Shown here: positions 4,167-56,846 of the stretch, piece by piece
Layout of the letters: the number at the start of each line of letters is the position of its first letter
Position numbering within the stretch: position 1 is the stretch's first letter
From: Terriglobia bacterium
GTDB taxonomy: Bacteria > Acidobacteriota > Terriglobia > Bryobacterales > Bryobacteraceae
NCBI GenBank assembly: GCA_020073345.1
Contig: JAIQFI010000002.1
Coordinates: forward strand, 186,001-250,000
Reading direction: 5' to 3'
DNA length: 64,000 nt
Notes under the pieces: model-generated
The model's input: only the letters and a program-made list of their open reading frames with translations
What the model was told of the DNA's origin: nothing
Database searches by the model: none
Translations under genes and position numbers: made by a program

Positions 4167-4185
4167 AGTAGGCTGTCCTGGAGAA

Positions 4186-4206: not shown

Positions 4207-4230
4207 ACTCTTTCCAGACTACCACAACGG

Positions 4231-7556: not shown

Positions 7557-8303
7557 TTAGAGGCGGTTCATCAGGCTGGCCGCGTAGCCGGCACCGAAGC
7601 CGTTGTCGATATTTACTACCGTCACATTACTTGCGCAACTATTCAGCATGCCAAGAAGGGCCGCCAGGCCCTGGAAACTTGCCCCGTAACCAACGCTGGT
7701 TGGTACGGCGATCACCGGCGCGGCCACCAGCCCGCCGACCACGCTCGGCAGCGCGCCTTCCATTCCCGCGCATACGATCACCACGCGGGCTTCCGACAAG
7801 CGCTCGCGATTCTGCATCACCCGATGGATGCCGGCGACGCCGATATCGTGAATGGCGACGACTTCGTTGCCCATCACTTCCGCGGTGACTTGCGCTTCCT
7901 CGGCCACCGGCAGATCGCTGGTGCCGGCGCAGACCACTGCGATCTTGCCTTTGCCGCGCAGCGTGCGGTCGCGCCAGACCCGCACGGCGCCAGAGGCGGG
8001 GAAGTATTCGGCCTGGGGATGCTCGCGCTGGATACGCTCGGCGGTGGGTTGATCGGTGCGCGTCACCAGAACGTTCTGGGCTTTGTCGAGCAGGCTCGCT
8101 ACGATGGCGCTGATCTGGTCGGGAGTCTTGCCCTTGCCGAAGACGACTTCCGGGATTCCGTGCCGCAGCGCGCGATGATGATCGATCTTGGCGAAGCCCA
8201 GGTCTTCGAAGGGCAGATGGCGCAGGCGTTCGATGGCTGCGTCGACGTCCACCGCTCCGGCGCGGACCTGTTCGAGCAAGCCGCGCAGATGATCCTGATC
8301 CAT
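7557..8303 (-). CDS. larB: Nickel-pincer cofactor biosynthesis protein LarB (P2CMN synthase)
   Basis: 248 residues. The C-terminal half (about 115-248) is a PurE/AIR-carboxylase-like domain with [16 protein letters not shown] and [13 protein letters not shown], the LarB signature. LarB carboxylates and hydrolyses nicotinic acid adenine dinucleotide, the first step to the nickel pincer nucleotide used by lactate racemase-type enzymes. LarC and LarE are not next to it, so partners must lie elsewhere or the pathway is incomplete. Confidence 0.88.
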
Positions 8304-8344
8304 ACGAATCCGAGTGTAGCGAGAAAGCGGGGGGCCGAAGGATT

Positions 8345-8971
8345 TCAGTACTTCCGAAGGACGGCGAGGACCTTGCCCTGGATCGCCACCGAAGACGCCG
8401 GGACGTAGATGGGCTGCATGGCGGCGTTTGCGGGCTGCAGGCGGACGCGGTCGCCCGCCTCTTTGTACAACCTCTTGAGCGTGGTTTCCATGCCGTTGAC
8501 CAGTGCCACGACGATCTCTCCGTCGCGGGCCGTGGCGGCGCGCTCCACCAGCACGTAATCGCCGTCGCAGATGTGATCTTCGATCATGGACTCGCCGCGC
8601 ACCTGCAAGGCGTAGGTGTTGGGGTCGGAGGTGAAGTCGGCGAAGCTGACGGTGTCATTGCCGGCCAGCGATTCTACCGGCACACCCGCGGCAATGCGGC
8701 CAAGCAGCGGAATTTCGAGCGGGGGCGGCGCTTGACGGTGCTGGCGCTGCTCGTCATAATACCGTGGGGCGATTTCAAGCGAGCGGCTCTGGTTAAAGCC
8801 CCGCTTCAAGTAATGCTTGGATTCCAGCGCCAGGATGTGCTTGTGAACGGTGGCCAGCGAGGCGAGGCTCAGCCCGTCGGCGATCTCTTCGTAGCTCGGG
8901 CAGTAGCCGTTCTTCTCCAGGAAGCCGGCCAGGAAATCCAGGAATTCCTTCTGGCGTTTGGTGAGAGCCAT
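8345..8971 (-). CDS. lexA: LexA repressor
   Basis: 208 residues. The N-terminal winged helix-turn-helix (1-70) begins [14 protein letters not shown]. The C-terminal S24 peptidase domain has the self-cleavage site A95-G96 (RIAAGVPVE), catalytic S128 (RGESMIED) and K166 (METTLKRL). It represses DNA-damage genes and cleaves itself when RecA filaments form. A good sigma-70 promoter sits directly upstream and places the transcript start at about the ATG. I found no obvious LexA box of the GAAC-N4-GTTC or GTTC-N7-GTTC type. Confidence 0.95.
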
Positions 8972-10204: not shown

Positions 10205-10378
10205 TCAGGGATCGCCTTTAGGCGGGGATTCTTCCTTTGCCGTCCGTACCAGTTCGTCCAAGCGTTCCTTCGGAACAGCAAGCACACCACGCATGACTGT
10301 CTTGAAATGCTGGAACTCTGGCTTCGAAACGCGAGCGCGTGTAGATGTCCTTACCCTATCCCAGAGGGTTGGTTTCAC
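10205..10378 (-). CDS. Small hypothetical protein, 57 residues
   Basis: A frame from GTG 10378 to TGA 10205, closed upstream by an in-frame TAA. The middle reads QHFKTVMRGVLAVPKERLDE and resembles small bacterial proteins with an aliphatic VxxVPKxEL core that are often found upstream of accessory genes or toxin modules. An internal ATG (residue 29) is an alternative start. No good ribosome binding site is seen. It precedes the membrane coiled-coil gene on the same strand by 122 bases. Confidence 0.45.
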   Translation of the reverse strand: MKPTLWDRVRTSTRARVSKPEFQHFKTVMRGVLAVPKERLDELVRTAKEESPPKGDP

Positions 10379-10430
10379 GGATTAAGCGCCATAGACGCAG
10401 GCTGCATGTCTGGCGTATAAGGGTTCAAGC

Positions 10431-11165
10431 ATGAACAACACAGGGCTCTTTTGGGGTCCGCTACTTCTGGTTCCAGCCCTGGGGCTTGCCAGCACGATCA
10501 TTGAACCCAGCCCGGTCATCAGCACTGTATGCACGGTTGCACAAGTCGCGGTGGCGTGCGGCCCCGCCTACCAACCGAAATTCTACGGAAACGAAAACGT
10601 GGCTGCGGGCGCTTCGGTCTCCATTCTCGGACTGAACACTGCGGACGGCCTGGACATTGAGGCTGGCGCGGGAGCCACCGCCGGAACGACCAGCCGGGAT
10701 GATCTGGGTGTCGGATCGAGCGCGATCGCTTTCGTCTTTCTGGATTTCTTTGGATCTACCGATGGGCCGGCTCGTCAGGGATTTGCTACCTTTGCCATCG
10801 TTTCTGACCACGATCAAGACGGCGGTGCCGTGGGCCTCGCGTCAAGTTTCATAGCGGGCCTGGGATCTTGTGAAGGAACGCTGTGCGTGACAGGAGCCAC
10901 GCTGGTTCCGTTTGAACTCGGAATGCCATTTGAGATCGGATTGTCCCTTCGCGCCGCCAGCGGTTCTGGACCTCATGTGCTCGACGGCGCCGGCACTTCC
11001 GCGGTGATTCAGCTTCGATTGTTTGAAACCTCCGGAGACCCGGTCGTCATTTTCGACCCCCCGGGCCCCAGCGTGCCAGAGCCGGGTAGCTGGGTATTAT
11101 CCGCGCTCGGGATCCTCACTTTTTTGATCTTTCGGGCGAAAACCATCTCTACACGCCAACCATAG
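10431..11165 (+). CDS. PEP-CTERM sorted secreted protein
   Basis: 244 residues. It has an N-terminal signal peptide (MNNTGLFWGPLLLVPALGLA), a Gly/Ala/Ser-rich beta-type body, and the C-terminal sorting signal VPEPGSWVLSALG from residue 215. A hydrophobic stretch and a basic tail (FRAKT) follow. PEP-CTERM proteins are cut and released to the surface by exosortase. The cargo function is unknown. The stop abuts that of the convergent rnr gene. Confidence 0.85.
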   Translation: MNNTGLFWGPLLLVPALGLASTIIEPSPVISTVCTVAQVAVACGPAYQPKFYGNENVAAGASVSILGLNTADGLDIEAGAGATAGTTSRDDLGVGSSAIAFVFLDFFGSTDGPARQGFATFAIVSDHDQDGGAVGLASSFIAGLGSCEGTLCVTGATLVPFELGMPFEIGLSLRAASGSGPHVLDGAGTSAVIQLRLFETSGDPVVIFDPPGPSVPEPGSWVLSALGILTFLIFRAKTISTRQP

Positions 11166-13412
11166 CTAGCGCTTGCGGGCGTTTCGCTGCCGCTCGCGCG
11201 GAGTTGCCGCGACTACCGAGAAGCTAAGTTTCTTCTCCACGCCATCCACGCGATCCAGGCGGACACGCACCTTGTCGCCGATCGAATATTGCCGCCGGCT
11301 GCGTTCGCCGATGATCTTGCGGACGTTCTCGTGATACGTGTAGCGATCGCCTAGAAGCGTGTCGAGCGGCACCAAGCCTTCGATGAACAGGTCCTCCAGC
11401 TCCACGAAGAATCCGAAGCGGGTGGTGGAAATGATCAGGGCCAGGAATTCGTCGCCCACTTTGTCGATCATGAACTTTACTTTTTTCCACTCGACCAGCT
11501 CGCGCTCGGCTTCGGCCGCGCGGCGCTCGGTATCGGAAGAGGATTCCGCGATGCCGCGCATGTCCGCCTCGTAGCGGCTCGCGTCGAGATAGGCCCCCAG
11601 CACGCGGTGCACGATCAGATCGGGATAACGGCGAATCGGCGAGGTGAAGTGCGTATAGCTGGGCGCGGCCAGCGCGAAATGGCCCTGGTTGCGATCGCTG
11701 TAGCGGGCTTGCTTCAGCGACCGGAGCATCAGGTAGCTCAGGATGCGCTCTTCCGGTTTGCCTTCGATCTTCTTGACCAATCTCTGATAGTTGCGCGACG
11801 TGAAGTTGACATCGTCCAGCGCGACGACAACGTGTTCCTTGAATCGTTTGACGGGCGCCGCGCCGCCCCGGAGCGAATAACCGAAGTGGGTGGCGACCTC
11901 CTCGAACTCCAGCACGCGCTTGGGATCGGGTCGCTCATGGATGCGGAAGATGGTGGGAACCTCCAAAGCCTCCAAGTGCGACGCGACGGCTTCATTCGCC
12001 GCCAGCATGAACTCCTCGATCAGCCGATGCGCGATGTTGCGTGGCGCGCGCGTAACGCCGGTCATTTCGCCAAACTCGTTGAACTCGAGCAGAGGCTCGG
12101 GCAGATCGAAATCGATGGAGCCGCGGCGGACGCGCTTTCGGTTCAGGATCAGCGCCAGTTCCTGCATCCATTTGAAACGCTGGACGAGCCGCTCGTAGCG
12201 TTCAAGCAATGCCGGATCGCCCTCGAGAACGCCGTGGACAGCGGTGTAGGTCATCCGCTCGGCGCTGCGGATGACGCCGCGGGTGAATTCCTGGGCTACT
12301 ACGTCGCCCTGGGCGTCGATTTCCAGCAGCGCGGAGAGCACCAGGCGGTCTTCGTGCGGCCGCAGCGAGCACTGATCGGTCGATAGCTCCACCGGCAGCA
12401 TGGGAACGGCGCGGTCAGGGAAATAAACGCTGGTTCCGCGCAACGCCGCTTCACGGTCAATGGGCGATCCGGGCCGCACGTAGTGGCTCACATCCGCGAT
12501 GTGTACTTGTAGCGCCCAGGTCCCATTGCTTAAAGGTTCCACCCACACTGCGTCGTCGAAATCCCGCGCGGTTTCGCCGTCGATGGTGACAATATCCAGT
12601 TCCCGAAAATCGCGGCGGCGGGCCAGTTCGGCCGGGGAGATCGGCCCGGGAATCGCCCTCGCTTGTTCCAAAACTTCATCAGGAAAGTGATGCGGAATGT
12701 GATGCGAGCGGATGAGAATTTCGACGTCGATGCCGAAGTCGTCGGGCAGACCGAGGATTTCGATGATGCGGCCCACGGGACGGCCGCCGTCTTCGCCGAA
12801 GTCCATGATTTCCGCGGTGACGACCATGCCGTCCAGGTCTTCGACGGTGCTCACGGTGATGGCCGAAGCGCCTACGCGGTCCACCGTCACCTGGCGGGCG
12901 GGCAGCGCCATATCTTCGGGAATCTCGATCCACTGGCGAATACGGTCGTCATGGGGAACCACGAAATTGCCAGTGCGCCGGATGCGGAACTCGCCGACCA
13001 CGGTCGGATGGGCGCGGCGCAACACGCGCACGATCTCGCCGTCGGCCTTCCCGTCGCGCTCGATTCGGGCGATGCGTGCGACTACGCGGTCCCCGTGCAT
13101 GGCGCGGGCCGCCGACTCCTTAGGGATATACACGTCGCCGCGCAGGCCGGGAACGGGGACTTCGGGAATCACGAAGCCGTAGCCGTCGCGGTGGACGTTG
13201 AGTCGTCCCACGGCGAATTCGCGGCTGACGCCGGTAGCGGTGTAGTGCCCGGATCGCGTTTCGACGATGTCCCCGCGCTGGGCCAGGCGGGTCAGCTCGG
13301 CTTCCAGCTGCGGCCGTGTGATCCCGTGACGCGCTTGCTCCCGCAGCAACTGCTTGAGAGTCGCCCGGCCGTGCGGAAGCTTGCGGATGTGCTCGATGAG
13401 GGGCTGCGCCAC
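11166..13412 (-). CDS. rnr: Ribonuclease R
   Basis: 748 residues. A short N-terminal winged helix (EHIRKLPHGRATLKQLL) and cold-shock-type domains (about 70-230) come first. The RNB catalytic domain follows (about 255-585), with ETARDFDDAVWVE supplying the acidic residues, then a C-terminal S1 domain (about 640-725, FFVELEDLFIEGLVPL). RNase R is a 3'-5' exonuclease that degrades structured RNA and defective rRNA. Its start at 13412 lies 21 bases from the divergent DUF355 gene. Confidence 0.95.
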   Translation of the reverse strand: MAQPLIEHIRKLPHGRATLKQLLREQARHGITRPQLEAELTRLAQRGDIVETRSGHYTATGVSREFAVGRLNVHRDGYGFVIPEVPVPGLRGDVYIPKESAARAMHGDRVVARIARIERDGKADGEIVRVLRRAHPTVVGEFRIRRTGNFVVPHDDRIRQWIEIPEDMALPARQVTVDRVGASAITVSTVEDLDGMVVTAEIMDFGEDGGRPVGRIIEILGLPDDFGIDVEILIRSHHIPHHFPDEVLEQARAIPGPISPAELARRRDFRELDIVTIDGETARDFDDAVWVEPLSNGTWALQVHIADVSHYVRPGSPIDREAALRGTSVYFPDRAVPMLPVELSTDQCSLRPHEDRLVLSALLEIDAQGDVVAQEFTRGVIRSAERMTYTAVHGVLEGDPALLERYERLVQRFKWMQELALILNRKRVRRGSIDFDLPEPLLEFNEFGEMTGVTRAPRNIAHRLIEEFMLAANEAVASHLEALEVPTIFRIHERPDPKRVLEFEEVATHFGYSLRGGAAPVKRFKEHVVVALDDVNFTSRNYQRLVKKIEGKPEERILSYLMLRSLKQARYSDRNQGHFALAAPSYTHFTSPIRRYPDLIVHRVLGAYLDASRYEADMRGIAESSSDTERRAAEAERELVEWKKVKFMIDKVGDEFLALIISTTRFGFFVELEDLFIEGLVPLDTLLGDRYTYHENVRKIIGERSRRQYSIGDKVRVRLDRVDGVEKKLSFSVVAATPRERQRNARKR

Positions 13413-16720: not shown

Positions 16721-18154
16721 ATGGGGCTATCGCCGTCCTTCTTTGCCGCAAAATTCGGGATCACCGAGCGCGATCTGGAGTCCTACCTGAGCGAAGCGCT
16801 CTCGGCGGGAGGGGAATACGCGGATCTGTATTTCGAATACCTCTCCACCAGCTCGATCGGTATCGACGAAGGCATCGTTAAGAGCGCCAGCGAGAGCGTG
16901 ACGCTGGGCGTAGGCATTCGCGTGATCGCGGGCGAACGGACAGGTTACGCCTACAGCGACGATCTCAGTCCTGAGAAGATTCGCAAGGCGGCCCGTGTTG
17001 CTGCGCTGATCGCGCGCGGTCCGGCGAGCGTGATGAAAACCGGCTTCCAGGAGGCCCGCAAACACAATCTGTATTCCATGGTGACCTCTCCACACGAAGC
17101 CAGCCTGGCGGAGCGCGTGGACCTGGTCAAGCGCGCCGATACGGCCGCTCGTGCCTACGACAGCCGCGTGTTTCAGGTGATCGCGAACTACGCGGATAGC
17201 GTGCGGGAAGTTCTCGTTGCTTCGAGCGATGGCCGCCTCAGTTTTGACCGCCAGCCGATGGCGCGCATGGGCGTCGCTGCGCTAGCTCGCGAGACCGACG
17301 GCGTTCCGCAGCAGGGATACTCCGGTGGCGGCGGACGCGTGACGCTCGATTTCTTCCTGAATGAGAAAACTCCTGAGCATTTCGCGCGCGAAGCCGCGCG
17401 TCAGGCAATCGTTCAGCTCTCCGCCGTGGACGCGCCGGCGGGTGAATCGGTCGTCGTCCTGGGACCCGGATGGCCCGGTATCCTGCTGCACGAAGCCGTC
17501 GGACACGGCCTGGAAGCCGATTTCAACCGTAAGGGTGTTTCCGCTTTCAGCGGCCGCATCGGCCAGCAGGTCGCCAGTCCTCTGTGCACGGTTATTGACG
17601 ATGGAACGATTGGCAGCCGCCGCGGATCGCTGAACGTGGACGACGAAGGCGTTCCTACGCAGAAAAACGTCCTGATCGAAAACGGCATCCTGCGCGGATA
17701 TCTGCAGGACACGCTTTCGGCGCGATTACTGAAGTCTGCTTCCACCGGCAGCGGCCGGCGCGAAAGTTACCAGCACATCCCCATGCCGCGTATGACCAAC
17801 ACCTACATGCTGGCCGGACAGAGCGACCCGGACGATATCATCCGCAGCGTCCCCAAAGGAATCTATTGCGCGACGTTTGGCGGAGGACAGGTCGATATCA
17901 CCAGCGGCAACTTCGTCTTCCAGGCCACCGAAAGCTACCTGATCGAAAACGGCAAGCTGACCCAGCCTGTGAAGGGCGCGACTCTGATCGGCAACGGTCC
18001 CGAGGCGCTGAAATACGTCAGCATGGTGGGCCACGACCTCCAGCTCGATGAAGGCATCGGCGTCTGCGGCAAGGAAGGGCAGAGCGTCCCGGTGGGCGTC
18101 GGTATCCCGACCGTGAAGATCGACAAGATGACCGTCGGAGGCACGGCAGCGTGA
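16721..18154 (+). CDS. tldD: Metalloprotease TldD
   Basis: 477 residues. The zinc motif HEAVGH (H257, E258, H262) with the following GLEAD is the TldD signature, and the ending GVGIPTVKIDKMTVGG is also typical. TldD and TldE/PmbA form a heterodimeric protease that trims unfolded peptides. Known roles include microcin B17 maturation and CcdA degradation. The pmbA-like partner starts at 18151, overlapping this stop by four bases, so the two are translationally coupled. Confidence 0.95.
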   Translation: MGLSPSFFAAKFGITERDLESYLSEALSAGGEYADLYFEYLSTSSIGIDEGIVKSASESVTLGVGIRVIAGERTGYAYSDDLSPEKIRKAARVAALIARGPASVMKTGFQEARKHNLYSMVTSPHEASLAERVDLVKRADTAARAYDSRVFQVIANYADSVREVLVASSDGRLSFDRQPMARMGVAALARETDGVPQQGYSGGGGRVTLDFFLNEKTPEHFAREAARQAIVQLSAVDAPAGESVVVLGPGWPGILLHEAVGHGLEADFNRKGVSAFSGRIGQQVASPLCTVIDDGTIGSRRGSLNVDDEGVPTQKNVLIENGILRGYLQDTLSARLLKSASTGSGRRESYQHIPMPRMTNTYMLAGQSDPDDIIRSVPKGIYCATFGGGQVDITSGNFVFQATESYLIENGKLTQPVKGATLIGNGPEALKYVSMVGHDLQLDEGIGVCGKEGQSVPVGVGIPTVKIDKMTVGGTAA

Positions 18155-19500
18155 GCGACAATCTTCTGGATATTGCCGCGGGGGCAACTAAGAGAGCCCT
18201 GGAACTCGGTGCGAGCGGCGCCGAGTGCACCATCTCCGAAGGCGAAGAATTCTCCGCCAGCGTGCGCATGCGCGAGGTCGAAAACCTCAAGCAAGCCGGC
18301 TCGCGGGGCGCTGGAATCCGCGTGCTGGTGGGTAATCTGACCGGTTCATCCAAGACATCCGATTTATCTCCGCAAGGTATTGAAACCATGGTCCGTGGAG
18401 CTCTGGATCTGGCCCGGATCACCACCCCGGATCCGCACGCGGGATTGCCCGACCCGGCCGATCTGGGGCGCTTCCAGGGCGACCTAAAACTCTACGATGA
18501 TGCGGTTTCACGCATCGAAACCGAGTGGAAAATCGCGCAAGCGACGAAGGCCGAAGAAGTCGCTCTGGCGGCCGACGCGCGCATCACGAATTCGGAAGGC
18601 GCCTCGTTCGATTCCTATCTCGGTTCGCGCGTGTTCGCCAATTCGCTGGGGTTCGCCGGCGAGTATCGGACGTCGAGCTGCGGTCTGAGCGTCGTCCCGG
18701 TGGCCAAACAGAACGGCTCCATGGAACGTGATTACTGGCACACATCGGCGCGCGAGGTATCGCGTCTCGAAAGCCCGGAGGAAGTAGGCAGGCGTGCGGC
18801 GGAACGGGCTCTGCGCCGCCTGAATCCTCGCAAAGTGCCGACGCAGAAGGTGCCGGTGATTTTCGAGCCTCGCACTGCCCGCATGCTCTTGGGCGATCTC
18901 TTCGACGCGGTCAACGGCGGAGCGATTTACCGCCACGCCTCGTTCCTGGCCGGCAAACTCGGAGAGAAGATCGCGTCCGAGGCGCTGACGATCATCGACG
19001 ACGCGACCATGCCAGGCTTGTTCGGCAGCTCGCCCTTCGACGATGAAGGCGTGACCTCGCGGCGGACGGTGGTCATCGAGCGTGGGGTGCTCAAGAGTTA
19101 TCTCTTGAATACCTACACGGCCCTGAAGCTTGGGCTGAAGACCACCGGCAACGCGTCGCGGGGGCTCGCCGGGAGCGCCGGCGTGGGCCCGGGCAACTTC
19201 TACATCGAAGCGGGAGAACGTTCCGAAGGGGATTTGATTGCGGGCGTCCGCCAGGGACTCTATGTTACGGAGCTGATCGGCGCTTCCGCCAATACTGTGA
19301 CCGGAGACTATTCCTCGGGCGCCGCCGGTCTGTGGATCGAGAACGGTGAACTGGCGTATCCTGTTTCGGAGATCACCATCGCCGGAAACCTGAAGCAGAT
19401 GCTGATGAACCTGGAGCAGGTGGGAGCGAATCTCGAGTTCCGCAGCTCGATCGCTTCCCCAGCGCTGTTGATCGGGGAGATGACTATCAGTGGCCAGTAA
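18151..19500 (+). CDS. pmbA: TldE/PmbA, non-catalytic partner of TldD
   Basis: 449 residues, U62/PmbA family. It lacks the HExxxH motif, as expected for the TldE subunit. The conserved KVPVIFEPRTARMLLGDLFD and ASRGLAGSAGVGPGNFYIEAG blocks are present. The GTG start overlaps the tldD stop, and its own stop overlaps the next gene's GTG start by 11 bases. It builds the closed chamber that feeds peptides to TldD. Confidence 0.93.
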   Translation: MSDNLLDIAAGATKRALELGASGAECTISEGEEFSASVRMREVENLKQAGSRGAGIRVLVGNLTGSSKTSDLSPQGIETMVRGALDLARITTPDPHAGLPDPADLGRFQGDLKLYDDAVSRIETEWKIAQATKAEEVALAADARITNSEGASFDSYLGSRVFANSLGFAGEYRTSSCGLSVVPVAKQNGSMERDYWHTSAREVSRLESPEEVGRRAAERALRRLNPRKVPTQKVPVIFEPRTARMLLGDLFDAVNGGAIYRHASFLAGKLGEKIASEALTIIDDATMPGLFGSSPFDDEGVTSRRTVVIERGVLKSYLLNTYTALKLGLKTTGNASRGLAGSAGVGPGNFYIEAGERSEGDLIAGVRQGLYVTELIGASANTVTGDYSSGAAGLWIENGELAYPVSEITIAGNLKQMLMNLEQVGANLEFRSSIASPALLIGEMTISGQ

Positions 19501-48123: not shown

Positions 48124-48586
48124 CTATTTCCCCACCAGGTGGGGGAAATCTTTTTCGTTTTCCAGGCAGATGAAATCCATCAGCTCGGAATTGAGCACGA
48201 TCGACTGGCTGATCTGAATGGTCCACGGCTTGGTATACGCCTTGGGATCTTGCACGGTGAGCTCGATCTCCAGCACGCCATAGTTCACGCGACGGAACTT
48301 CTCTGTCATCGTGGCCTTGCCGGTTAGCGGACTGCCGAAGCGGTCCAGCCACTGCCCGTCAAGGAATCCGTTGGTCTCGACCACGAGCGTGTCCCCGTCC
48401 CAGCGCCCCGTGGAGTAGCCATTCCGCGACGGAAAGATCCGGCTTCCCCTCGGGCGTCCTCGGCGAGGGCGCGTTCAGATTCGGAGCTCCCGCGGCTGTC
48501 TTCGGAATTCCCGGTGTCGGATAATTCAGCTACTGGCCGAAGGTGGGGATGACGGTCAGCAGGGGGGCCGCCACGGCGCGAACCAT
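48124..48586 (-). pseudogene. Broken member of the secreted protein family
   Basis: A start with a strong GGAGGTG site at ATG 48586 and the first 18 codons of a signal peptide are followed by an in-frame TAG (48530-48532). The frame goes on with TPGIPKTAAGAPNLNAP and TPEGKPDLS, then jumps near 48430 into another frame (GYSTGRWDGDTLVVETNGF). It continues to the normal family end (DFICLENEKDFPHLVGK). About 100 codons of the middle are missing compared with relatives. Stop codon plus deletion make it a pseudogene. It lies just outside the left end of the mobile element. Confidence 0.8.
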
Positions 48587-48669: not shown

Positions 48670-48683
48670 AAACGATTGGTGCG
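48670..48683. repeat. Left 14-bp direct repeat (target duplication)
   Basis: AAACGATTGGTGCG, identical to 55180-55193. It lies outside the left inverted repeat and matches the complement of the tRNA-Leu 3' end with its flank. Confidence 0.8.
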
Positions 48684-48719
48684 GGGGAGAGCTATACGAG
48701 CGGGAAAAGTGCTACACCC
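48684..48719 (+). repeat. Left terminal inverted repeat, 36 bp
   Basis: It begins GGGGAGAGCTATACGAGC and ends GCTACACCC, and matches the complement of 55144-55179 except for one base (G48700). It can also be read in frame as ELYEREKCYT at both ends with only a synonymous change, so a duplicated coding fragment remains an alternative. Confidence 0.8.
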
Positions 48720-48973
48720 TAGCTTTGGGGCTACAAGTGCACGGGTTCGTTGCGTGCGAGGATGCGGGTAGTCGGTCTCGCGCATCTGTTCTTTATGTCG
48801 TTTCTCGTGGGGCAGGAAACGTCGTAGATGCTTTAGAAAGGGAAGTCGGGATCGACCGGATCAAGTTCGCAGTTGGCGACCACGACTTGTCGGGAGTAAT
48901 CGGCTCTCGCGTGGGCAGGCGGTTGGGACCAGATGGAAGGGTTCCCTTTCTTCTTTGGCGGCGTGACGGATAT

Positions 48974-49414
48974 CTATGCAGGGTACGGGGGAAGAATTAC
49001 GAGAGTAAACCGTACGCTGCATCTATCCGGTGCGTGCTGAATAAACTCTACGGTACCTTGACCAAAACGGCAATGGGGCAATCGGTGGCTACTGGACTCG
49101 TAACGAAAGGAATGGAGAGCTCCCTTCATGCGTTCGTAAAAATCTTCCATACGTTTGATGTCAGCACCACTCACGTTCGTGCAGTCAATCAGATATTGAT
49201 CGGCCCCAGTTTGCTTAAGCGTAATTATCCCCGATACCGGCAAAGGAAAAACGTCTAGCTTTTCCAAATCATCCGATGTGTACTGCTGCACCTCATCCGG
49301 CATTCCGTTTCTCCTTAGAAACATTCTATCCCAGTCTTGTAGTAACGCTATGCGTTGGGCCAACGGGTCTTTTTCATCCGATAGAATCCTGATCAGTCTG
49401 GGGCGAAATGGCAC
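48974..49414 (-). CDS. Hypothetical protein within the mobile element
   Basis: 146 residues from GTG 49414 (PFRPRLIRILSDEKDPLAQR). Charged and apparently soluble, with no signal or membrane segment and no family that I recognise. An overlapping plus-strand frame exists but has a less protein-like composition. First gene inside the left end. Confidence 0.5.
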   Translation of the reverse strand: MPFRPRLIRILSDEKDPLAQRIALLQDWDRMFLRRNGMPDEVQQYTSDDLEKLDVFPLPVSGIITLKQTGADQYLIDCTNVSGADIKRMEDFYERMKGALHSFRYESSSHRLPHCRFGQGTVEFIQHAPDRCSVRFTLVILPPYPA

Positions 49415-49589
49415 ATCTGAAATAGCTCCGCTGTCCGTTATGGACCTGGAAAAGTCCCGTGAAAAACGCCGTTCACGTTAGCTCTGTTGGTGTGGTCCTC
49501 CAAAATGCAGCACGAGCAAGGGTCTGAGGTGCCTCGCTACCGATTCGTACGTGCGCGCCGTGCCGCACTCGTCACGTTATGATGTATGA

Positions 49590-50447
49590 GTGGCGAACGA
49601 GTCACAACTGGCGGTCTTGAAACGCGACGGTGTAGAGGCCTGGAACTCTTGGCGGGTTGGGCATCCCGATGAGTTGCCCGACGTCCAACGTGCAGATTTA
49701 GGTCGATCGGATCTCCGTGGCGTGAACCTACGTCTCGCAAATCTCCGCGGGGCAAACTTGCGTGCCACCAACCTACGTGGAGCAGACCTCAGCGGAGCAA
49801 ATTTACAGGGAGCCGATCTCATCCAGGCGAATCTCATAGATGCATCCCTCGCTGACTCTGACCTTATCGAGGCAAACCTCAGCGGTGCGACCGTCGGAGG
49901 GGCCAATTTTAGCTCAGCAAAAATGGGTGGGACGCGTCTGCAAGACCTAGACCTGAGTGAGGCTATCGGTCTCGAAACCGTTTCGCACGCTGGTGCTTCG
50001 ACAACTGGCGCGTCGACAATAAATCGTTCAGGGAGTCAGGTCCCTGAAAGCTTCCTGCGAGGTAGCGGGTATGTTCCTGACCCAATTGTGGCTCATCCTG
50101 CCCGGCGAGTAGTTGTTGCCGGAGCTGCCATGGTACCCGATCTCCTTCGGGATGACGTCACGCGCTTCCCCAAAGTCTACTTCTTGATGGATCTCGTGGG
50201 CCACCAGGTCGTCATTCTTGCTGTGGCCCTCTCAGTGCGCCTATTTCATCTAGCGATTTCGTGGCTCGAAGTGCACCTTCCCCTTCATAACCTGCCAGAG
50301 GAGTTGAGACCGTACTCATCGATATCCCTAACCCGCTCTATAGTTACTGTAATGGATACCGTCGCTGTCCTGATGGCGGTCCTTGTCGCCATTGGTGATT
50401 TGTGGAAGCTCTGCCGAGAGACTTGGAGGAGTGTACTGAATGACTAG
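49590..50447 (+). CDS. Pentapeptide-repeat protein with C-terminal membrane segments
   Basis: 285 residues from GTG 49590. Residues about 30-115 are A(D/N)LxG-type pentapeptide repeats (LRGVNLRLANLRGANLRATN), a right-handed quadrilateral helix. Then comes VPESFLRGSGYVPDPIV, which resembles the FLRGCGxPD linker that in other bacteria joins pentapeptide repeats to a TIR domain. Here no TIR follows; instead there are two membrane helices (about 205-225 and 255-275). The 3' end overlaps the next gene by 8 bases. A membrane-linked defence or effector part is possible but unproven. Confidence 0.7.
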   Translation: MANESQLAVLKRDGVEAWNSWRVGHPDELPDVQRADLGRSDLRGVNLRLANLRGANLRATNLRGADLSGANLQGADLIQANLIDASLADSDLIEANLSGATVGGANFSSAKMGGTRLQDLDLSEAIGLETVSHAGASTTGASTINRSGSQVPESFLRGSGYVPDPIVAHPARRVVVAGAAMVPDLLRDDVTRFPKVYFLMDLVGHQVVILAVALSVRLFHLAISWLEVHLPLHNLPEELRPYSSISLTRSIVTVMDTVAVLMAVLVAIGDLWKLCRETWRSVLND

Positions 50448-50787
50448 AGTCAACCTCATTTTCAAAGACGCTGGCTGGATTGTTGCTGAGTTGTTTCTCG
50501 GCACTCTGATCTGCTCAATTCCTGCTGCCCTAGTGGGAGAGGTAAGCGATACCACGGTCAGAATTGGTCTCGTGTTGACTGCGACAGTTCTTGTTCCCGC
50601 CGAAGTCATCAGACACATGGGCCCTAATCGCGTTCGTCAAGTTCTTCAAGATTTGACGATATCATCGCTCCAGTCCCTCGAGTCCTCGGAGAACGAGGGT
50701 GGTGTCGCCAGGGTGCCAGACACCTATCGGTACGGAAAAGAGCGGTCGCAAAGCGTGGCGGATCGAGGTGTGGAGAGGCCCCGGTAG
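50440..50787 (+). CDS. Small membrane protein, unknown
   Basis: 115 residues with one or two N-terminal membrane helices (AELFLGTLICSIPAALVG, VRIGLVLTATVLVPAEVI) and a polar C-terminal tail. It overlaps the pentapeptide gene, so the two are likely made together. No family recognised. Confidence 0.55.
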   Translation: MTRVNLIFKDAGWIVAELFLGTLICSIPAALVGEVSDTTVRIGLVLTATVLVPAEVIRHMGPNRVRQVLQDLTISSLQSLESSENEGGVARVPDTYRYGKERSQSVADRGVERPR

Positions 50788-51225
50788 TAACTTCACTCTA
50801 ATGATCGGGCAAGTGGCAAGACCAGATCACTCCGTGAAGTCGGCTTCAGGATAACGAGCATGTCCTAGATGTGACAGCCATTGGGTTTCGGCTCGGTTGG
50901 TTGTTTCCTTCGGGGCCCCCCTTGAGGGATTGGCATGTACTGGGCGTGTGGTGATTCATGCAGGGAACCTCGCAGTGGTTACACATGCCGTTGGTCCTTG
51001 GGCTCACCGGTGCTTGCGGAATGGTGAATATATCGGAACCACGATCAGCTCTCGGCCGAGGGTAGGGTCTATTCGATACCGGCACACTTTCGTCAAAGGA
51101 TTCGGAAAGGCCGCTAGCACCCATTGCCGTGAACTCAGCCCTGATAGTCCCTGGTATCGTTAAAAATCGCGATCACGAGGTGGGTACGGCGTGGATGGCG
51201 AACTCAACGTGCCCGCTGAACCTCT
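50788..51225. other. Non-coding stretch inside the mobile element
   Basis: About 440 bases without a recognisable gene. At 50834-50848 lies GTGAAGTCGGCTTCA, whose inverted counterpart is at 53107-53121 behind the polymerase gene. Confidence 0.45.
50834..50848 (+). repeat. Internal inverted repeat, left copy
   Basis: The sequence at 50835-50848 is the exact reverse complement of 14 bases at 53108-53121. The pair frames the truncated PIN-like and PolB genes. Each copy is itself nearly palindromic, so chance or a regulatory site is possible. Confidence 0.4.
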
Positions 51226-51579
51226 TCACGTAATCTTCTCGAACGCGAGGAAGGCCTTCAACGGAACAGCGGGAATGCCAAGCAAACCAGCAGCTGTTCT
51301 TAGTGACATTTTCCGGGCAAACTCCCTGGTTTCTTCGGTCACGATTCGTGCATCAACACCCTCCGACCGCAGACGTGCCGCCACTGCGAGTATGTATGGA
51401 TCCGCCTCCTCGGCCCCGGTATCTTTGTCGGGATCTAAAACCGCAGGAACACTCGCGAGAACTTTTCTGATTTCTTCAAAAGAGGGAGCACGCTCACAAG
51501 CTTTGGCTGCGTGTTTCTTAGCCCACTCATGCTGAGCGTCTGGAGACTTGGGCTCAGCAACTCTTCCAAGCTCATCCAC
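51226..51579 (-). pseudogene. C-terminal part of a DUF4411 / PIN-like protein gene
   Basis: 117 residues from GTG 51579; the frame stays open a few codons further (GAVYPKQVV) before a stop. EADPYILAVAARLRSEGVDARIVTEE and LLGIPAVPLKAFLAFE match the C-terminal half of the PIN-like DUF4411 family. The N-terminal half with the first catalytic Asp is missing. The break lies at the same place as the missing 5' end of the divergent PolB gene. Confidence 0.65.
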
Positions 51580-51587
51580 AACCTGTT

Positions 51588-53105
51588 TTGGATAAACCGC
51601 CCCGCATTCTTAGAGCAATTCGGATGGTGCCGCATGGAATCCAATCGGAGCTACGATCAACGAGCCTCCGTGGAATGGTCGAAATCGATCCCCGGAAGCA
51701 TGATTGTTTTCGCCACGCAGTCGAGCAGCGAAAGAGTAAGAAAACAAACCCCGCCACCTCGCGGTTTTTGAAGATTTTCGCCAACTCTGGAAGCTACGGA
51801 TTGTTTGTGGAGGTCACGCCAGAAAAACTGCCCAAGCCAGCCACAATTGGTGTATTTTCCGGGCAGCAGGTTTTCGAACAGCGAACAGCGGTTATCGAAC
51901 GCCAGGGTCGGTGGTATTTTCCGCCGATCGCCGCTCTCATCACCGCTGGGGGTCGGCTACTGTTAGCCATGCTCGAAAAATGCGTCACAGATGCAGGGGG
52001 ATCGTATCTCTTCTGTGATACAGATTCGCTTTGTATCGTGGCCTCTCAACGTGGAGGAGCCGTCAAATGTGAGACGGCCAACGGTAGTTCCTTGAAAGCC
52101 CTCTCCTGGAAACAGGTCGAAAAGATTGCGCACCGATTCCGATCCCTCAATCCCTACAGTCCTGACAGCATCCAGGATCTACTAAAAATCGAGGATCTAA
52201 ACTTCGATTCGCAAGGGGACCAGCGAAAAATATATGGCTATGCAATATCCGCCAAGCGGTATGCGCTCTACGAGCAAGCCGGTAAGGAGTTGACGATTGT
52301 CGACCCGAAAGCCCACGGGCTTGGGTATTTATATCCTCCTACCAGAAGAAACGGGAAGGAACCAGATTGGACATCGGAGGCCTGGGACTGGTTCTTGCGT
52401 CAGGAGCTTGGGTTAAGAGCCAAAACACCGAAATGGTTGAATGTGCCAGCAATGATGCGGGTTGTACTGAACACGCCCCAGGTCTTGGATCGTCTAAATC
52501 GCGAAACACGTCCATACAATTTCCTATTGTGCCCAGTGATCGATACCGTCGGTGGGTTACCAGCTGGCATTGACCCGACGAAGTTTATACTGATAACGCC
52601 GTTCCAGAACAAATCTGAGCGGTGGTTCGATGCGGAGTACATCAATATTCACGACGGGCGAATCTACCAGCTTGCGTTACGTCAGACGACCAAATTGGAC
52701 AAGGTCGTTCCCCAGACTTTCAGCTACGTTCTACGCCTCTATCCGTGCCACCCGGAATCGAAATCTCTCGCCCCTGACGGCTCAAATTGTTCCGCGACAA
52801 CACGCGGCCTGTTACAGCGGGCCTCGGTCATCGCTGGTAAGCAGCGATACGTTGGTAAGGAAACGGATCGGCGCTGGGAGCACGGTGAAGATCTCAGTCT
52901 ACTGGCGTTTAAGCCTTTGGAATACGAGCCATCCGGGCGTAGGGTGATTGCTGACCTGAAGCTCCGAGACGAGATCTCCAAGCACGGGCTTCGCAAAACG
53001 ATGCGCACGACAGGATTGAGCCAGCACACCCTTGAGAAGATCTGCCGTGGCCAGCCCGTGCGTCAAGCCACACTCCAACGGGTACTAACCGCGATGGGCC
53101 GCTGA
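51588..53105 (+). pseudogene. 5'-truncated family B DNA polymerase with C-terminal HTH-like region
   Basis: 505 codons from a weak TTG; family resemblance starts near residue 17. Polymerase motif B is FLKIFANSGSYG (60-71) and motif C is FCDTDSL (142-148). Motif A and the whole N-terminal exonuclease part are missing, so polymerase activity is not expected. The C-terminus (GLRKTMRTTGLSQHTLEKIC) looks like a helix-turn-helix. The full family is roughly 900-1000 residues, so about half is gone. Lower GC than the chromosome. PolB is the replicase of casposons and of pipolins. Confidence 0.75.
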
Positions 53106-53106
53106 C

Positions 53107-53121
53107 GTGAAGCCGACTTCA
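53107..53121 (-). repeat. Internal inverted repeat, right copy
   Basis: GTGAAGCCGACTTCA, inverted relative to 50834-50848, directly after the polymerase stop. Confidence 0.4.
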
Positions 53122-53228
53122 TCGCACGTTGCGCATGACGCCTGCGATGCAAGCCGGGATTACTGACTGCGTTTGGGATATCTCCGAACTACTCACAAAG
53201 TGATATGATCGCTTGCGAGTACGCATAC

Positions 53229-53609
53229 ATGCTCAAAATAAACATATTGGCAGGCGTTCTACTCGTTGCTCTCAGTGGAACGGCTCGTGCTGACTACAAA
53301 GTGAAGCAGTATCGCCAGATCATGGCATCGAACGATGAAACCACGATCGCGCTGTTCAAATCGTACTTGGTCGGTGTCGGTAAGGGGTTGGCGTGGGCAA
53401 ATACGGGCTTTAGGCTAAACGGCAGTTCCCAGCTCTTCTGTGTGCCCGCTAAGATGGCGCTCTTGCCGGAAAACATCCTCGATATTCTAGCCCGTCAAAT
53501 CAAAGAGGCATCGACCACAATGACCGAGGCAGAACTGAGCGAGGAGTGGGTTGAGCCGCTGATGCTAGTCGGCTTGGAAAACGCATTCCCCTGCCCCACG
53601 AAGAAGTAA
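53229..53609 (+). CDS. Secreted Rap1a/Tai-immunity-like protein
   Basis: 126 residues from ATG 53229, giving a signal peptide (MLKINILAGVLLVALSGTARA); an earlier ATG at 53205 is possible. FKSYLVGVGKGLAWANTGFR, LFCVPAKMALLP and MLVGLENAFPC, with the two conserved cysteines, match the Rap1a/Tai immunity fold. Members protect against type VI effectors or are orphan periplasmic proteins. No effector is seen nearby. Confidence 0.65.
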   Translation: MLKINILAGVLLVALSGTARADYKVKQYRQIMASNDETTIALFKSYLVGVGKGLAWANTGFRLNGSSQLFCVPAKMALLPENILDILARQIKEASTTMTEAELSEEWVEPLMLVGLENAFPCPTKK

Positions 53610-53694
53610 ACGCAGTTTTAGGACACTACCCAGTTGCGAATCCCCAGTTGCTTGGTTGTTCGATACAATAAACTTGCCCAGACAGGAGGCCCAC

Positions 53695-54450
53695 ATGGGT
53701 GCGCAACAAAGTCAGTTTGTCTTCGAAATTCGTTATAAGCCGAATGCAAAACTCTTAGATTGCCGAGGCAAATCGGCAGAATCAATCGCCGCGCATCTTG
53801 GGCTACCTCATTGGCTCATCGTGGAAAACCGTCTCGACGTCTTCGATGCCGAACAGACCACGAGGCTCTTTGTCAGCTTTAGAAACGCCGGTTACGTCCA
53901 GGAAAATCCGCCCACGAATCATTTCTTCAGCGACAACTGCGTAAAAGCATTTAAATTCATCAGTACCGTTGATGGATTCGAGTCGCCCCTCAGCGTGGAG
54001 CGGCTCGGCATTCGTCTTAGAGCGCTCACCCCCTTCCTCGGCAGCATGACGGAGCTAGTGAACCGGTACAAGGCCAGATATTACGGTTTCAAGTCTGAGG
54101 CGGAAACGGCCTTGGACGGCGAACTGGTGGATATCGGCGGCGCGTTGAACTTCAAAGGAAAGTTTGGAAACTTCAACACAAATGGCGGACCGATGCCAGC
54201 CGAGCAGGCTAAATCATATTTCCCGAAGGCTCTCGAACTACCAGATGTGGGCTTGTTCATGGATATCGACTACTGGACAAAGCCCAATAAAGCGATGACC
54301 ACGGACGAGATCACTAAAACAATCCGTCAGTTCTCAACGGAGTGCATTCAGAAACACGCAAGAGTAGCTGATTTGATTCTGGGAGATCCTCCGCATGGCG
54401 AACAGTGGATCGCGGGCGCAACGCAAGTTGGAACGCGCCCGAACGCTTAA
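53695..54450 (+). CDS. Hypothetical protein within the mobile element
   Basis: 251 residues from ATG 53695, chosen because AGGAGG lies 5 bases upstream; a frame start at 53656 is less likely. The sequence (FVFEIRYKPNAKLLDCRGKS, then ALNFKGKFGNFNTNG) resembles the general plan of the TIGR04255 group of element-borne proteins, but I would not name it. Soluble. The next gene starts inside its last 56 bases. Confidence 0.6.
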   Translation: MGAQQSQFVFEIRYKPNAKLLDCRGKSAESIAAHLGLPHWLIVENRLDVFDAEQTTRLFVSFRNAGYVQENPPTNHFFSDNCVKAFKFISTVDGFESPLSVERLGIRLRALTPFLGSMTELVNRYKARYYGFKSEAETALDGELVDIGGALNFKGKFGNFNTNGGPMPAEQAKSYFPKALELPDVGLFMDIDYWTKPNKAMTTDEITKTIRQFSTECIQKHARVADLILGDPPHGEQWIAGATQVGTRPNA

Positions 54451-54910
54451 ATCCGGAAGCCCTGACAGTCGCCAATCTCAAGCCGCGAACGATGGTGCGG
54501 AGGTTGGAATCCGACCGGCTGGCTCAGAAGCCGAACCGGTTGGTTCCACCGGTACACCAGATCTTCCCAATAGGACCGAAGCTCCTGGCTCGGAACTTAG
54601 GATCTACCATCTATCTGATTACTGGGATGCGACAGTTGCGCCCGAAGTGGGAGTGCCAGAGGAGACGCAAGGAGAATTTGTTGAAAGCGTTCCCGGCCTT
54701 CTGGACAAGTATCTATTCAGCCAGTTAAAAACCCAACACCTGATTTTGATGATCCCTCTCGTGCCGATGGTGTGGATTTTTGTGCAGGACAACGGGGCGG
54801 GGCGTTTAGAAACTATTCAAGGTGTCCTCTGGTGGTTGGCCAAGTCTGGTATCGCACTTTTGGTTTGCGCGGTGTTTCTCTTGTTCGCAGCCTTACTCAA
54901 ACGCCGATAG
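54395..54910 (+). CDS. Hypothetical membrane protein coupled to the preceding gene
   Basis: 171 residues. A long polar, Ser/Pro/Glu-rich N-terminus (1-105) is followed by two C-terminal membrane helices (HLILMIPLVPMVWIFV, SGIALLVCAVFLLFAALL) ending in KRR. It overlaps the upstream gene by 56 bases in another frame. A soluble protein with a two-helix membrane partner is a layout seen in several defence modules, but nothing specific is recognised. Confidence 0.6.
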   Translation: MANSGSRAQRKLERARTLKSGSPDSRQSQAANDGAEVGIRPAGSEAEPVGSTGTPDLPNRTEAPGSELRIYHLSDYWDATVAPEVGVPEETQGEFVESVPGLLDKYLFSQLKTQHLILMIPLVPMVWIFVQDNGAGRLETIQGVLWWLAKSGIALLVCAVFLLFAALLKRR

Positions 54911-54945
54911 TTCGACGGATCAAAATTCGGGGCATGAAGGTCAGG

Positions 54946-54955
54946 CCCCCCCCCC
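54946..54955. repeat. C10 homopolymer run
   Basis: Ten cytosines in a non-coding part of the element. Prone to slippage; length may vary or be misread. Confidence 0.6.
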
Positions 54956-55143
54956 GAACGAAAGCGTCCAGGGGTCAGTGGGCGAGCTATCTATATTCCG
55001 GCTTCACGCAGCCAGTCGAGTACGACTCCCGGCGCGCCCGTCATCAGGCGCTGCTCCGCGACGTCGTAAGATCAGCAGTCCGTCGCCGGACCGCAGAATG
55101 GCCGTCAATTCGGCGGGAGGATCGTACCCAAGTCCGTACGTCC

Positions 55144-55179
55144 GGGTGTAGCACTTTTCCCGTTCGTATAGCTCTCCCC
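55144..55179 (-). repeat. Right terminal inverted repeat, 36 bp
   Basis: Reverse complement of 48684-48719 with one mismatch (T55163). Directly followed by the right 14-bp direct repeat. Confidence 0.8.
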
Positions 55180-55193
55180 AAACGATTGGTGCG
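55180..55193. repeat. Right 14-bp direct repeat, overlapping the tRNA-Leu 3' end
   Basis: AAACGATTGGTGCG, the same as 48670-48683. Bases 55187-55193 are the end of the tRNA, including CCA, so the tRNA stays intact after insertion. Confidence 0.8.
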
Positions 55194-55273
55194 GATAAGA
55201 GGACTTGAACCTCCACTCCCTTGCGAGAACTAGAACCTGAATCTAGCGCGTCTGCCAATTCCGCCATATCCGC
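55187..55273 (-). tRNA. tRNA-Leu (anticodon CAG)
   Basis: 87 bases with encoded CCA. The acceptor stem GCGGATA pairs with TATCCGC. The anticodon arm CTAGA-TTCAGGT-TCTAG gives anticodon CAG (reads CUG). A long variable arm (around CTCGCAAGGGAG) and the T-arm GGTTCAAGTCC are present, as in class II tRNA-Leu. Its 3' end is the integration site of the element to its left. Confidence 0.95.
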
Positions 55274-55354: not shown

Positions 55355-56164
55355 CTACAATCGCTCTTTGGTCATGTGCACCGAGTCCTTTTCGTTCTCG
55401 TTGCAGATGAACTCCATCAGCTGAAATCCGGGACGCCAGTTTACAGTGTTGCTGGTGGTCCATGGTTTTGAATACGCTCCCGGATCGTCGATGGTGACTT
55501 CGTATTTGAGCGTGAGCGAATCGGTGCGAGTGTACCGCTCGGTCAGACGCGCCTGCGTAGTCTGCGGATGCCCCGCCTGATCGAGCCAGGCCTTTCCGTT
55601 GAAACCGACGACGTCCACCACCAGAGCGTCTTTCTCATAGTGCCCGGCCGCGTCGCCCATCCACGTTGGACTCACATCCTTCGGATGATCGCTGCGAAGA
55701 GGGACCGTGCGCCACAAGTAGTTGTCGCCCTCGAACAGAAACATGACCTGCTTCGGAGTCTGGACCATCTCGAAGGCGTACGGATCGAACATGTAGCGCG
55801 GAACGCCCACCGGAAGGCACTGCGCTTCAGGATCGTCCTTGGAGTTGCTGGTAACGCGCTGGTTGAACAGCTCGAGCGCCGCGGGAAGAAACGGCACATC
55901 CACTTTTACATCGGCGCTCTTCACGCCCTTCCACTTCGTCTCCGCGATGTTTCCGGAGAAACCCGGAAACCACGCGCCGTTGCCGCCAAAATCTGGTCTT
56001 CCGTCAGGAAGGTGTTGCGCCGGGCCTGCTTTGGCGCGCGGGCCTTGCTTGGTCGCGCCGGTGCCTTGCGTCGCGCCGATATCGAACGCACCCGGATCGG
56101 GAGCAGTCTGCTGACCCAGCAGCGTGGTCAGTAGTATCGGGACGCTAATCGCGAGTGACCGCAT
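55355..56164 (-). CDS. Secreted conserved protein of the expanded family
   Basis: 269 residues from ATG 56164 (MRSLAISVPILLTTLLGQQT, signal peptide); the frame extends upstream into the methyltransferase gene. Landmarks: HLPDGRPDFGGNGAW, CLPVGVPRYMFDPYAFEMVQ, VVDVVGFNGKAWLDQAGHPQ, LTERYTRTDSLTLKYEVTID and MEFICNENEKD. Function unknown. The ATG overlaps the methyltransferase end by 20 bases. Confidence 0.8.
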   Translation of the reverse strand: MRSLAISVPILLTTLLGQQTAPDPGAFDIGATQGTGATKQGPRAKAGPAQHLPDGRPDFGGNGAWFPGFSGNIAETKWKGVKSADVKVDVPFLPAALELFNQRVTSNSKDDPEAQCLPVGVPRYMFDPYAFEMVQTPKQVMFLFEGDNYLWRTVPLRSDHPKDVSPTWMGDAAGHYEKDALVVDVVGFNGKAWLDQAGHPQTTQARLTERYTRTDSLTLKYEVTIDDPGAYSKPWTTSNTVNWRPGFQLMEFICNENEKDSVHMTKERL

Positions 56165-56846
56165 AGCACAAGCTATGATATCCCGGAATCGAGTCGTCAT
56201 CCTGCTGAACTCTGAGGACCCGGCCGCCGCCGCGCTCTAGCAATCCGACAACCTGCTTGCGATTCATGCCATTCATGTACATCGGCCGCGGCCTGGACAA
56301 GAGCGCTGTCCATCTCCCGAGGCGATACCGGAGACGTATCGGCTTGCTCGGATACTGGAACAACAGCAGCCCGCCAGGGGCCAGCACGCGCAGGAACTCG
56401 CTGATACAGCGCTGTGCGTCACGAGGCCGCACGTGCTGCAGCGTGATCCACGAATAGATCATGTCGATCGAGCCATCCGCGAAATGACTCAAGTCGCCGG
56501 CCGGATTGCACAGGTACTCGCAGCGCGCGCCTTTACGATTGTGCTGGCGCGCCAGCTCGATCATCCTCGGTGAAATATCGACGCCGTAGACCTGATCGAA
56601 GTGATCCGCCAGCGCCTGGCTCAGCCGGCCGATGCCGCATCCGAAGTCGAGCGCCGTGCGGCGCGATGCCGGTACCCGCAACGCCTTGGCTTGCTCCATG
56701 AAGGCGCCCACCTCGCGAACCCCGGTGGCGAAGAACTCGTCCGCGTCCCAACGGCCACTGGCTTTAGCCGGGTCGGTAAGGATAGCCCACATGGGATCGG
56801 AATGGGCCTGACGATCCCAATACTGCTGTACGGTGCTTAACCGCAT
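56145..56846 (-). CDS. Class I SAM-dependent methyltransferase
   Basis: 233 residues. SAM motif I LDFGCGIGRLSQALADHF, motif II VYGVDISPRMIELARQH and YSWITLQHVRPRDAQRCISEFLRVLAPGG place it in the Methyltransf_11 group. Substrate unknown; such genes often act on sugars, lipids or quinone precursors. Confidence 0.88.
   Translation of the reverse strand: MRLSTVQQYWDRQAHSDPMWAILTDPAKASGRWDADEFFATGVREVGAFMEQAKALRVPASRRTALDFGCGIGRLSQALADHFDQVYGVDISPRMIELARQHNRKGARCEYLCNPAGDLSHFADGSIDMIYSWITLQHVRPRDAQRCISEFLRVLAPGGLLLFQYPSKPIRLRYRLGRWTALLSRPRPMYMNGMNRKQVVGLLERGGGRVLRVQQDDDSIPGYHSLCYAVTRD

Follow-up and report, generated by a model that had tools for sequence, protein, structure and literature searches.

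Casposons are the favoured model for the origin of the enzyme that inserts spacers into arrays of clustered regularly interspaced short palindromic repeats (CRISPR), and to our knowledge few bacterial casposons have been described. Here we analyse a 6,496-bp element (48684-55179, with its inverted repeats as outer limits) in a 64-kb stretch of the genome of a Terriglobia bacterium, hereafter the window, which an earlier reading of the letters by themselves (the sequence-only reading) had taken for casposon-like. Considered as a whole, this element is very probably a non-autonomous casposon derivative that was placed at a tRNA-Leu(CAG) gene by a Cas1-type casposase and comes from a lineage normally inserting at the -35 box of promoters.

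The closest described systems, as far as the available parts of the cited papers go, are casposons of families 2 and 3, which carry genes for Cas1, a B-family DNA polymerase (polB), a helix-turn-helix (HTH)-like protein and an HNH-like protein together with inverted repeats and a duplication whose median length is 15 bp (Krupovic et al. 2014, PMC4046053). The same source includes an actinobacterium among casposon hosts, describes a C-terminal extension with a CxxC..CxxC motif in the Cas1 of AceAut-C1 and reports for five euryarchaeal casposons that the duplication covers 4-7 bases at the 3' end of a tRNA gene; the bacteria that it names, in those of its sections that we could use, do not include our host group. 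Casposons of families 3 and 4 are placed in intergenic regions in the accessible portion of PMC6614799. MetMaz-C1 of Methanosarcina mazei uses 14-bp sites at or like tRNA-Leu (tLEU1, CGCATCAAATTTCT; tLEU2, CGCAcTtAttTTtT) according to the available text of PMC10359463 and shares this type of site with the window element (CGCACCAATCGTTT), but it is an archaeal, complete casposon that was shown to move, whereas the window copy is not complete. Such likeness is expected for a tRNA-Leu 3' end and is not evidence of descent.

The window element at tRNA-Leu(CAG)

The 36-bp terminal inverted repeats of the element (48684-48719, plus strand, and 55144-55179, minus strand) are complementary at 35 of 36 positions across a separation of 6,424 nt, and the 14-bp direct repeats AAACGATTGGTGCG flanking them (48670-48683 and 55180-55193) are identical throughout (14/14), just as the sequence-only reading had described them. 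Other inverted pairs in the same 9-kb stretch reach 72-81% over 21-25 nt, with one perfect pair of 14 nt. The target gene, tRNA-Leu(CAG), was predicted at 55187-55273 on the minus strand and is intact after the insertion, so that 7 of the 14 duplicated bases (55187-55193) are the tRNA 3' end and the proposed 7-base overlap stands. The element thereby displays terminal inverted repeats and a 14-bp duplication, as is usual for casposons, as well as an intact target gene overlapped at its 3' end, the kind of site that the euryarchaeal casposons occupy; unlike casposons of families 2 and 3, it has no Cas1 and only half a polymerase.

This polymerase half is a 505-codon open reading frame (ORF; 51588-53105, plus strand) for the C-terminal part of a B-family DNA polymerase, with homology starting slightly ahead of it at around 51546. 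Under the motif names that we take to apply, motif B (ANSGSYG) and motif C (CDTDS) are present, while the exonuclease motif and motif A are absent, and in an alignment the corresponding FDTET and DFxSxYP of the relatives fall in the portion that the window polymerase lacks. Searched on its own, the fragment gives weak matches to the phrog_1907 DNA polymerase (E=1.3e-4) and to one PDB chain (E=0.009) and none to a Pfam family; its identity to longer relatives is 32-58% in the alignment and 59% over 504 residues by BLAST to the closest one, which upholds the earlier identification of a PolB fragment. The CDTDS letters are common to the window polymerase and to a PolB_CDTDS group in which the available text of Kazlauskas et al. 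(PMC7544198) mentions a casposon member, and may serve as a lead only.

The sequence-only reading had stated that the element has no Cas1, and none is encoded in the 64-kb window by tblastn at E<=1e-3 with sibling proteins (14 of the Cas1 cluster, some of them partial); the nine ORFs scanned in the element include neither an integrase nor a DDE transposase. Because both the element and the whole window are devoid of Cas1, we file the element as a casposon derivative and not as a complete casposon.

The host assembly comprises 6,230,231 bases on 98 contigs and is 97.5% complete. Within it, the element end occurs at the two window places only (77-base query at E<=0.001 and a pattern search with up to 3 mismatches) and is thus not a dispersed repeat, an alternative that the sequence-only reading had raised. 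The assembled part yields no casposase match at E<=1e-30, and the host's sole Cas1 gene sits between those of Cas2 and Cas4 and is a CRISPR Cas1. A second casposon-type polymerase fragment of 641 residues (G000:C36; locus L014, 11950-13875) shares 47-48% identity with that of the window and adjoins an IS66 transposase (10255-11814 and 18014-18976 are the coordinates listed for neighbours); no Cas1 match was obtained in its loci and no element ends in our scans.

Relatives of the element and their casposase

Our searches covered 61 genomes for the polymerase, 396 genomes of the phylum for casposase and polymerase, 399 of the class for the casposase and 241, host included, for the end pattern. 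Polymerase relatives were found in 3 of the 61 genomes, counting the host's own two copies: one genome (G060) holds a polymerase fragment only, and another of the same genus (G021:C386) encodes a 988-residue polymerase beside a 505-residue Cas1 (PF01867, E=1e-39). We note that a 227-bp inverted duplication (L012, 140-366 and 8705-8931) borders the cas1-polB block of G021, with a DUF4268 domain in the ORF of the right copy. Across the phylum, ten casposase matches at E<1e-70 in eight genomes stand apart from the next match at 9e-16, and seven genomes have polymerase matches. At E<=1e-30, casposase matches were obtained in 24 of the 399 class genomes, several of them fragmentary, with the host not among them. 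Given relatives with Cas1 and a host without a casposase match, the window copy appears to be a stranded, non-autonomous casposon derivative. The end pattern, with up to 3 mismatches, was found in the host and in genome G460 only, and a reversed control pattern gave no matches. The G460 ends, on two contigs, are identical to the window ends at 32/36 and 31/36 positions, in answer to the earlier proposal to look for the 36-bp repeat in related genomes, and no polymerase or Cas1 is encoded in the G460 parts covered.

We scanned 40 loci for two-ended elements, defined by a 13-15 bp duplication and matching ends, and found them in 15, window included; as L060 and L061 are one insertion in two genomes, we count 13 two-ended relatives. 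This strict scan gave no end pair in the other 25 (among them L012, L014, L056, L057, L058, L139, L145 and L148-L156), partly because contigs stop. A gene of the Cas1 cluster is present in 12 of the 13 relatives, all except L063, and encodes a full-length protein (507-545 residues) in eight, seven of which combine it with an unbroken polymerase of 962-1037 residues. The usual gene order is cas1 on the opposite strand, HTH-like gene, HNH-like gene and polB, where the HTH-like gene was recognised in 10 of the 15 loci annotated and the HNH-like gene was read by eye (NCBIfam HlpB at E=0.016 for one). These relatives thus share the gene set, the inverted repeats and, as detailed below, the CxxC..CxxC extension of Cas1 with casposons of families 2 and 3. 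The closest polymerase to that of the window (962 residues, the 59% match given above) belongs to L141 in genome G661, a complete casposon with ends identical to the window's at 30 of 36 positions, a duplication of 14/14 and a 523-residue Cas1 (NCBIfam cas1, 103 bits against a cut-off of 72), so that the full-length PolB beside cas1 with similar ends that the sequence-only reading had suggested looking for does exist. More distantly, L007 from the Acidobacteriaceae has 52% polymerase identity, ends identical at 25/36 positions and a Cas1 split across two frames.

It is scarcely credible, in our judgement, that the element is instead a DDE transposon or composite element of the ordinary kind, whose long inverted repeats came to enclose a polymerase fragment by chance. 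Such an origin would be compatible with flanks that hold members of one gene family, and no transposase is left by which to judge it, yet a direct repeat of 14-17 bp flanks seven of the eight loci whose inverted repeats were found first, with no duplication required, and both polB and the ends are common to Cas1-bearing elements. The eighth locus, L009, was rejected as a two-ended element since its inverted-repeat pair lacks a shared duplication and lies alongside an assembly gap.

An alignment of 17 casposases over 555 columns revealed E253, H273, D285 and E288 (L141 numbering) to be invariant, residues that presumably have the catalytic roles of their counterparts in CRISPR Cas1, and all four cysteines of the C-terminal CxxC..CxxC are invariant as well. 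The best PDB match of a profile of these proteins is 6OPM (E=3e-31), which we take to be the M. mazei casposase, followed by Cas1 4N06 (E=3e-30); the database labels of both read Cas1 endonuclease only. In a phylogenetic tree, the 17 casposases form one clade (100/99) that is joined to 6OPM and 4N06 (99/99) and stands apart from 8D3L and from 12 other Cas1 sequences of the same phylum, of which some are long, partial or fused and the host's own is the one whose gene neighbourhood was inspected.

Outside these genomes, the viral contigs searched gave no match to the window polymerase and, with the casposase alignment as query, a single 9.5-kb contig (L187), whose end scan was negative. Actinocorallia has a related polymerase (L008, 9311-11851), but within 21 kb there is neither a Cas1 nor a pair of ends.

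Target sites of the relatives

Across the 13 two-ended relatives, with the promoter side chosen by the box itself, a duplication that is followed outward on this side closes with the five bases TTGAC in ten and one base off in three (TTGAG in L055, TTGCG in L142 and TTGTC in L146), so that TTG is present in all 13; a random 14-mer, in either orientation, would have TTGAC at this place in 0.2% and TTG in 3.7% of cases. The seven relatives with intact Cas1 and polymerase account for four exact boxes and all three deviating ones. A -10-like TAnnnT follows the box at a spacing of 16-18 bp in 10 of the 13, compared to a mean of 0.23 and a maximum of 2 of 13 at 81 other offsets and none on the opposite element side. 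With five sites that were added after the box had been noticed and whose promoter side is present (L028, L029, L057, L064 and L151), the counts become 15/18 for TTGAC, 18/18 for TTG and 14/18 for TAnnnT (control maximum 2), with an unconvincing -10 box at L029; not all of these sites are independent, as tRNA-Gln promoters and valS promoters of different genomes account for three each. TTGAC is also found at five further ends (L012, L056, L148, L147 at 18805 and G460), while the remnant end L154 does not fit a -35 box. The window insertion, which does not fit one either, is an exception to the targeting of its relatives.

The genes beside the target promoters include tRNA-Gln and tRNA-Ala (ARAGORN), valS in L054 and L028 and thrS in L141 (Pfam), with others assigned by eye; the valS starts in L007/L028 and L054 are near-identical, and the neighbour at L140 is a class I synthetase with the same start as valS. 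This near identity, together with the assignment of G145 to the window's class, suggests that the host is an acidobacterium. Where the relatives strike a tRNA gene, they do so in the promoter ahead of it rather than in its 3' end; with a duplication that ends in TTGAC, the gene would retain its promoter. The L146 insertion may lie inside an open frame. This choice of -35 boxes differs from the intergenic placement of families 3 and 4 in the available part of PMC6614799. The tRNA-Gln promoter in genus g30 is a hotspot that was struck in several genomes (L059, L060, L061, L151 and L160), and in G164, G648 and G770 the flanks of this site are 4 to 28 kb apart.

We consider it unlikely that the -35 match should not be read as a promoter and that the casposase senses some other feature of upstream regions with the promoter as a bystander. 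The other nine bases of the duplication are indeed variable, three of the 13 boxes deviate by one base, L154 is unfit and L146 is possibly placed within a reading frame, all of which would suit this alternative; against it speak the fixed phase, with the five-base box closing the duplication in all 13 relatives (10 exact), and the TAnnnT 16-18 bp beyond it in ten.

Targeting of -35 boxes by the relatives is further supported by one empty site and four tandem junctions. The empty site, in G396, corresponds to an insertion common to G155 and G224; it is 91% identical across the junction and has a single copy of the duplicated bases, identical at 13/14. At each of the four tandem junctions (L058, L140, L143 and L150), two casposon ends lie exactly 14 bp apart, which indicates that neighbouring elements are parted by one repeat. 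In addition, a tRNA-Gln promoter of G216 (C1, 243148-243290; L160) carries a casposon remnant of 143 bp, enclosed by perfect 14-bp repeats, in which one end can still be recognised. By way of analogy only, a CRISPR array grows beside its leader in a comparable manner, with a Cas1-type enzyme adding units next to a fixed flank and a duplicated repeat between units, as tandem casposon ends are parted by one 14-bp repeat; casposon arrays differ in that they have no Cas2 and no CRISPR RNA, their promoter reads away from the array and their units are elements of 5-17 kb. Taken together, we think it likely that the class hosts a casposon lineage integrating at -35 boxes, including those of tRNA and aminoacyl-tRNA synthetase genes, with a 14-bp duplication ending in TTGAC, and that repeated insertion gives rise to promoter-anchored arrays; the casposase or its HTH-like or HNH-like partners would then read promoter DNA or bound RNA polymerase.

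Competing readings, course of insertion and cargo

Several observations weigh against a casposon origin of the window element or against its place in this lineage. The element lacks a Cas1 gene that would point to its own integrase, and its target is a tRNA 3' end outside the -35 rule, though the near-identical ends in G460 obey this rule. For the window insertion, no two-flank empty site was found; in six relatives compared for the left flank, the neighbouring gene is present and the element-adjacent stretch was not recovered beside the tRNA. The casposases form a clade of their own that is not placed in any of families 1 to 4, with 6OPM, a partial sequence on a long branch, as the only known casposase in the tree and with 4N06, labelled merely Cas1, grouping beside it. 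The host's second polymerase fragment has a phage-type integrase at a distance of 4.1 kb (PF00589, E=1e-22). In L146, two adjacent tyrosine recombinases (6231-7199 and 7196-8590), assigned to this locus from motifs and visual reading, accompany a full Cas1 and polymerase.

The latter two points would also fit an element that a tyrosine recombinase brought to tRNA-Leu, such as a pipolin; its Xer-like integrase would have used the 14-bp repeat as att core. Pipolins are polB-bearing elements at tRNA-Leu that rely on a tyrosine recombinase and att sites where casposons have Cas1 and inverted repeats, and a direct repeat over a tRNA-Leu 3' end together with polB is thus what they would show, too. 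We nevertheless regard such an origin as highly improbable, since the window element has 36-bp inverted repeats immediately inside the duplication and no tyrosine recombinase among the nine ORFs scanned, and since a Cas1-cluster gene is found in 12 of the 13 relatives. Their 129 ORFs of at least 100 residues include, among the matches listed, 11 for Cas1 and two for PF00589 phage integrase, both in L146; one ORF, in L063, is an IS66 transposase. Because the two integrases stand side by side in L146 along with full Cas1 and polymerase, we take the pair for a nested insertion, which it probably is, and the full-length versions with a tyrosine recombinase in place of Cas1 that the sequence-only reading had considered were not encountered. 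Also unlike what this alternative would suggest, 72,556 plasmids gave no match to Cas1 (E<=1e-20) or polymerase (1e-5) and 50,697 phages none to the polymerase (1e-5).

Empty-site comparisons for the window insertion are hampered by the patchwork region around it, where genes to the left and right of the element (48124-48384 and 55355-56200) belong by eye to a single family, and one of them is apparently truncated. At 13 comparable tRNA-Leu loci in other genomes of the genus, no casposon end was found within 60 bases past the tRNA, and a fourteenth runs off its contig; in G020, the bases past tRNA-Leu nearly match the duplication (AAAACGA versus AAACGAT).

The decayed or trans-mobilised bacterial casposon envisaged earlier is consequently still the best-supported reading of the window element, on the grounds of its ends, its duplication, the kinship of its polymerase to those of Cas1-bearing elements and the lack of a casposase match in the host. 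Under this casposon reading, a Cas1-type casposase would have been supplied by a complete copy that is absent from the host's assembled genome, either in trans or before cas1 was lost. If it acts like the A. boonei and M. mazei enzymes, as presented in the available parts of PMC6614799 and PMC10359463, it would have attached the element by both of its 3' ends to opposite strands of the tRNA-Leu(CAG) 3' end with a 14-nt stagger, and the filling of the gaps would account for the 14-bp duplication and for the intact tRNA. The window copy has neither cas1 nor the HTH-like and HNH-like genes, its polymerase is missing the front half, and it carries unrelated cargo; the missing parts would have been lost in an order that we can only suppose. 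The same portion of PMC6614799 describes that for A. boonei the flank beside the duplication matters in site choice; in the relatives, this flank would correspond to the promoter spacer with the -10 box, and the DNA letters, promoter melting or bound RNA polymerase are possible cues. The insertion at a tRNA 3' end may have been an off-target event or another casposase's work, and since the relatives use promoters, both types of site may be open to one lineage. As it lacks Cas1 and half of its polymerase, and as our searches of the genome gave no helper, the window copy should not be mobile now.

Its cargo begins with a pentapeptide-repeat protein (49590-50447, plus strand; PF00805, E=6e-23) whose C-terminal half appears hydrophobic by eye, followed by a short, seemingly hydrophobic protein without a family match (50440-50787, plus strand). 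Immediately upstream of the polymerase fragment, an ORF on the minus strand (51226-51579) matches the DUF4411 profile at positions 51-156 of 159 (E=1.8e-4, under the Pfam cut-off), as would the C-terminal portion of such a protein. Three plus-strand ORFs lie downstream of it: one with a signal-peptide-like start by eye and no firm family (53205-53609; Rap1a at E=0.029, under the cut-off), one without a family match (53656-54450) and one that likewise has none and shows C-terminal membrane segments by eye (54395-54910). No PADLOC match was obtained for this window cargo. The cargo of the relatives is often defence-like, with restriction- or defence-type matches in six of ten large ORFs and none in the other four. 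These matches are to GmrSD-like type IV and type IIG-like proteins, a type III pair, an HATPase with a restriction match and a Schlafen-type helicase, and the defence-like cargo lies at 3906-5840 and 5914-9480 in L142, 2968-7636 in L060, 13682-15991 in L055 and 7237-9144 in L147.

In the literature searched, which comprised neither subscription-only papers nor bioRxiv preprints, we found no account of promoter targeting by casposons or of casposons in Acidobacteria. If true, a lineage that targets -35 boxes would provide a simple, testable rule for site choice by a non-CRISPR Cas1 enzyme, intact copies of which are available, and promoter-anchored casposon arrays would be a natural counterpart of array growth beside a promoter.

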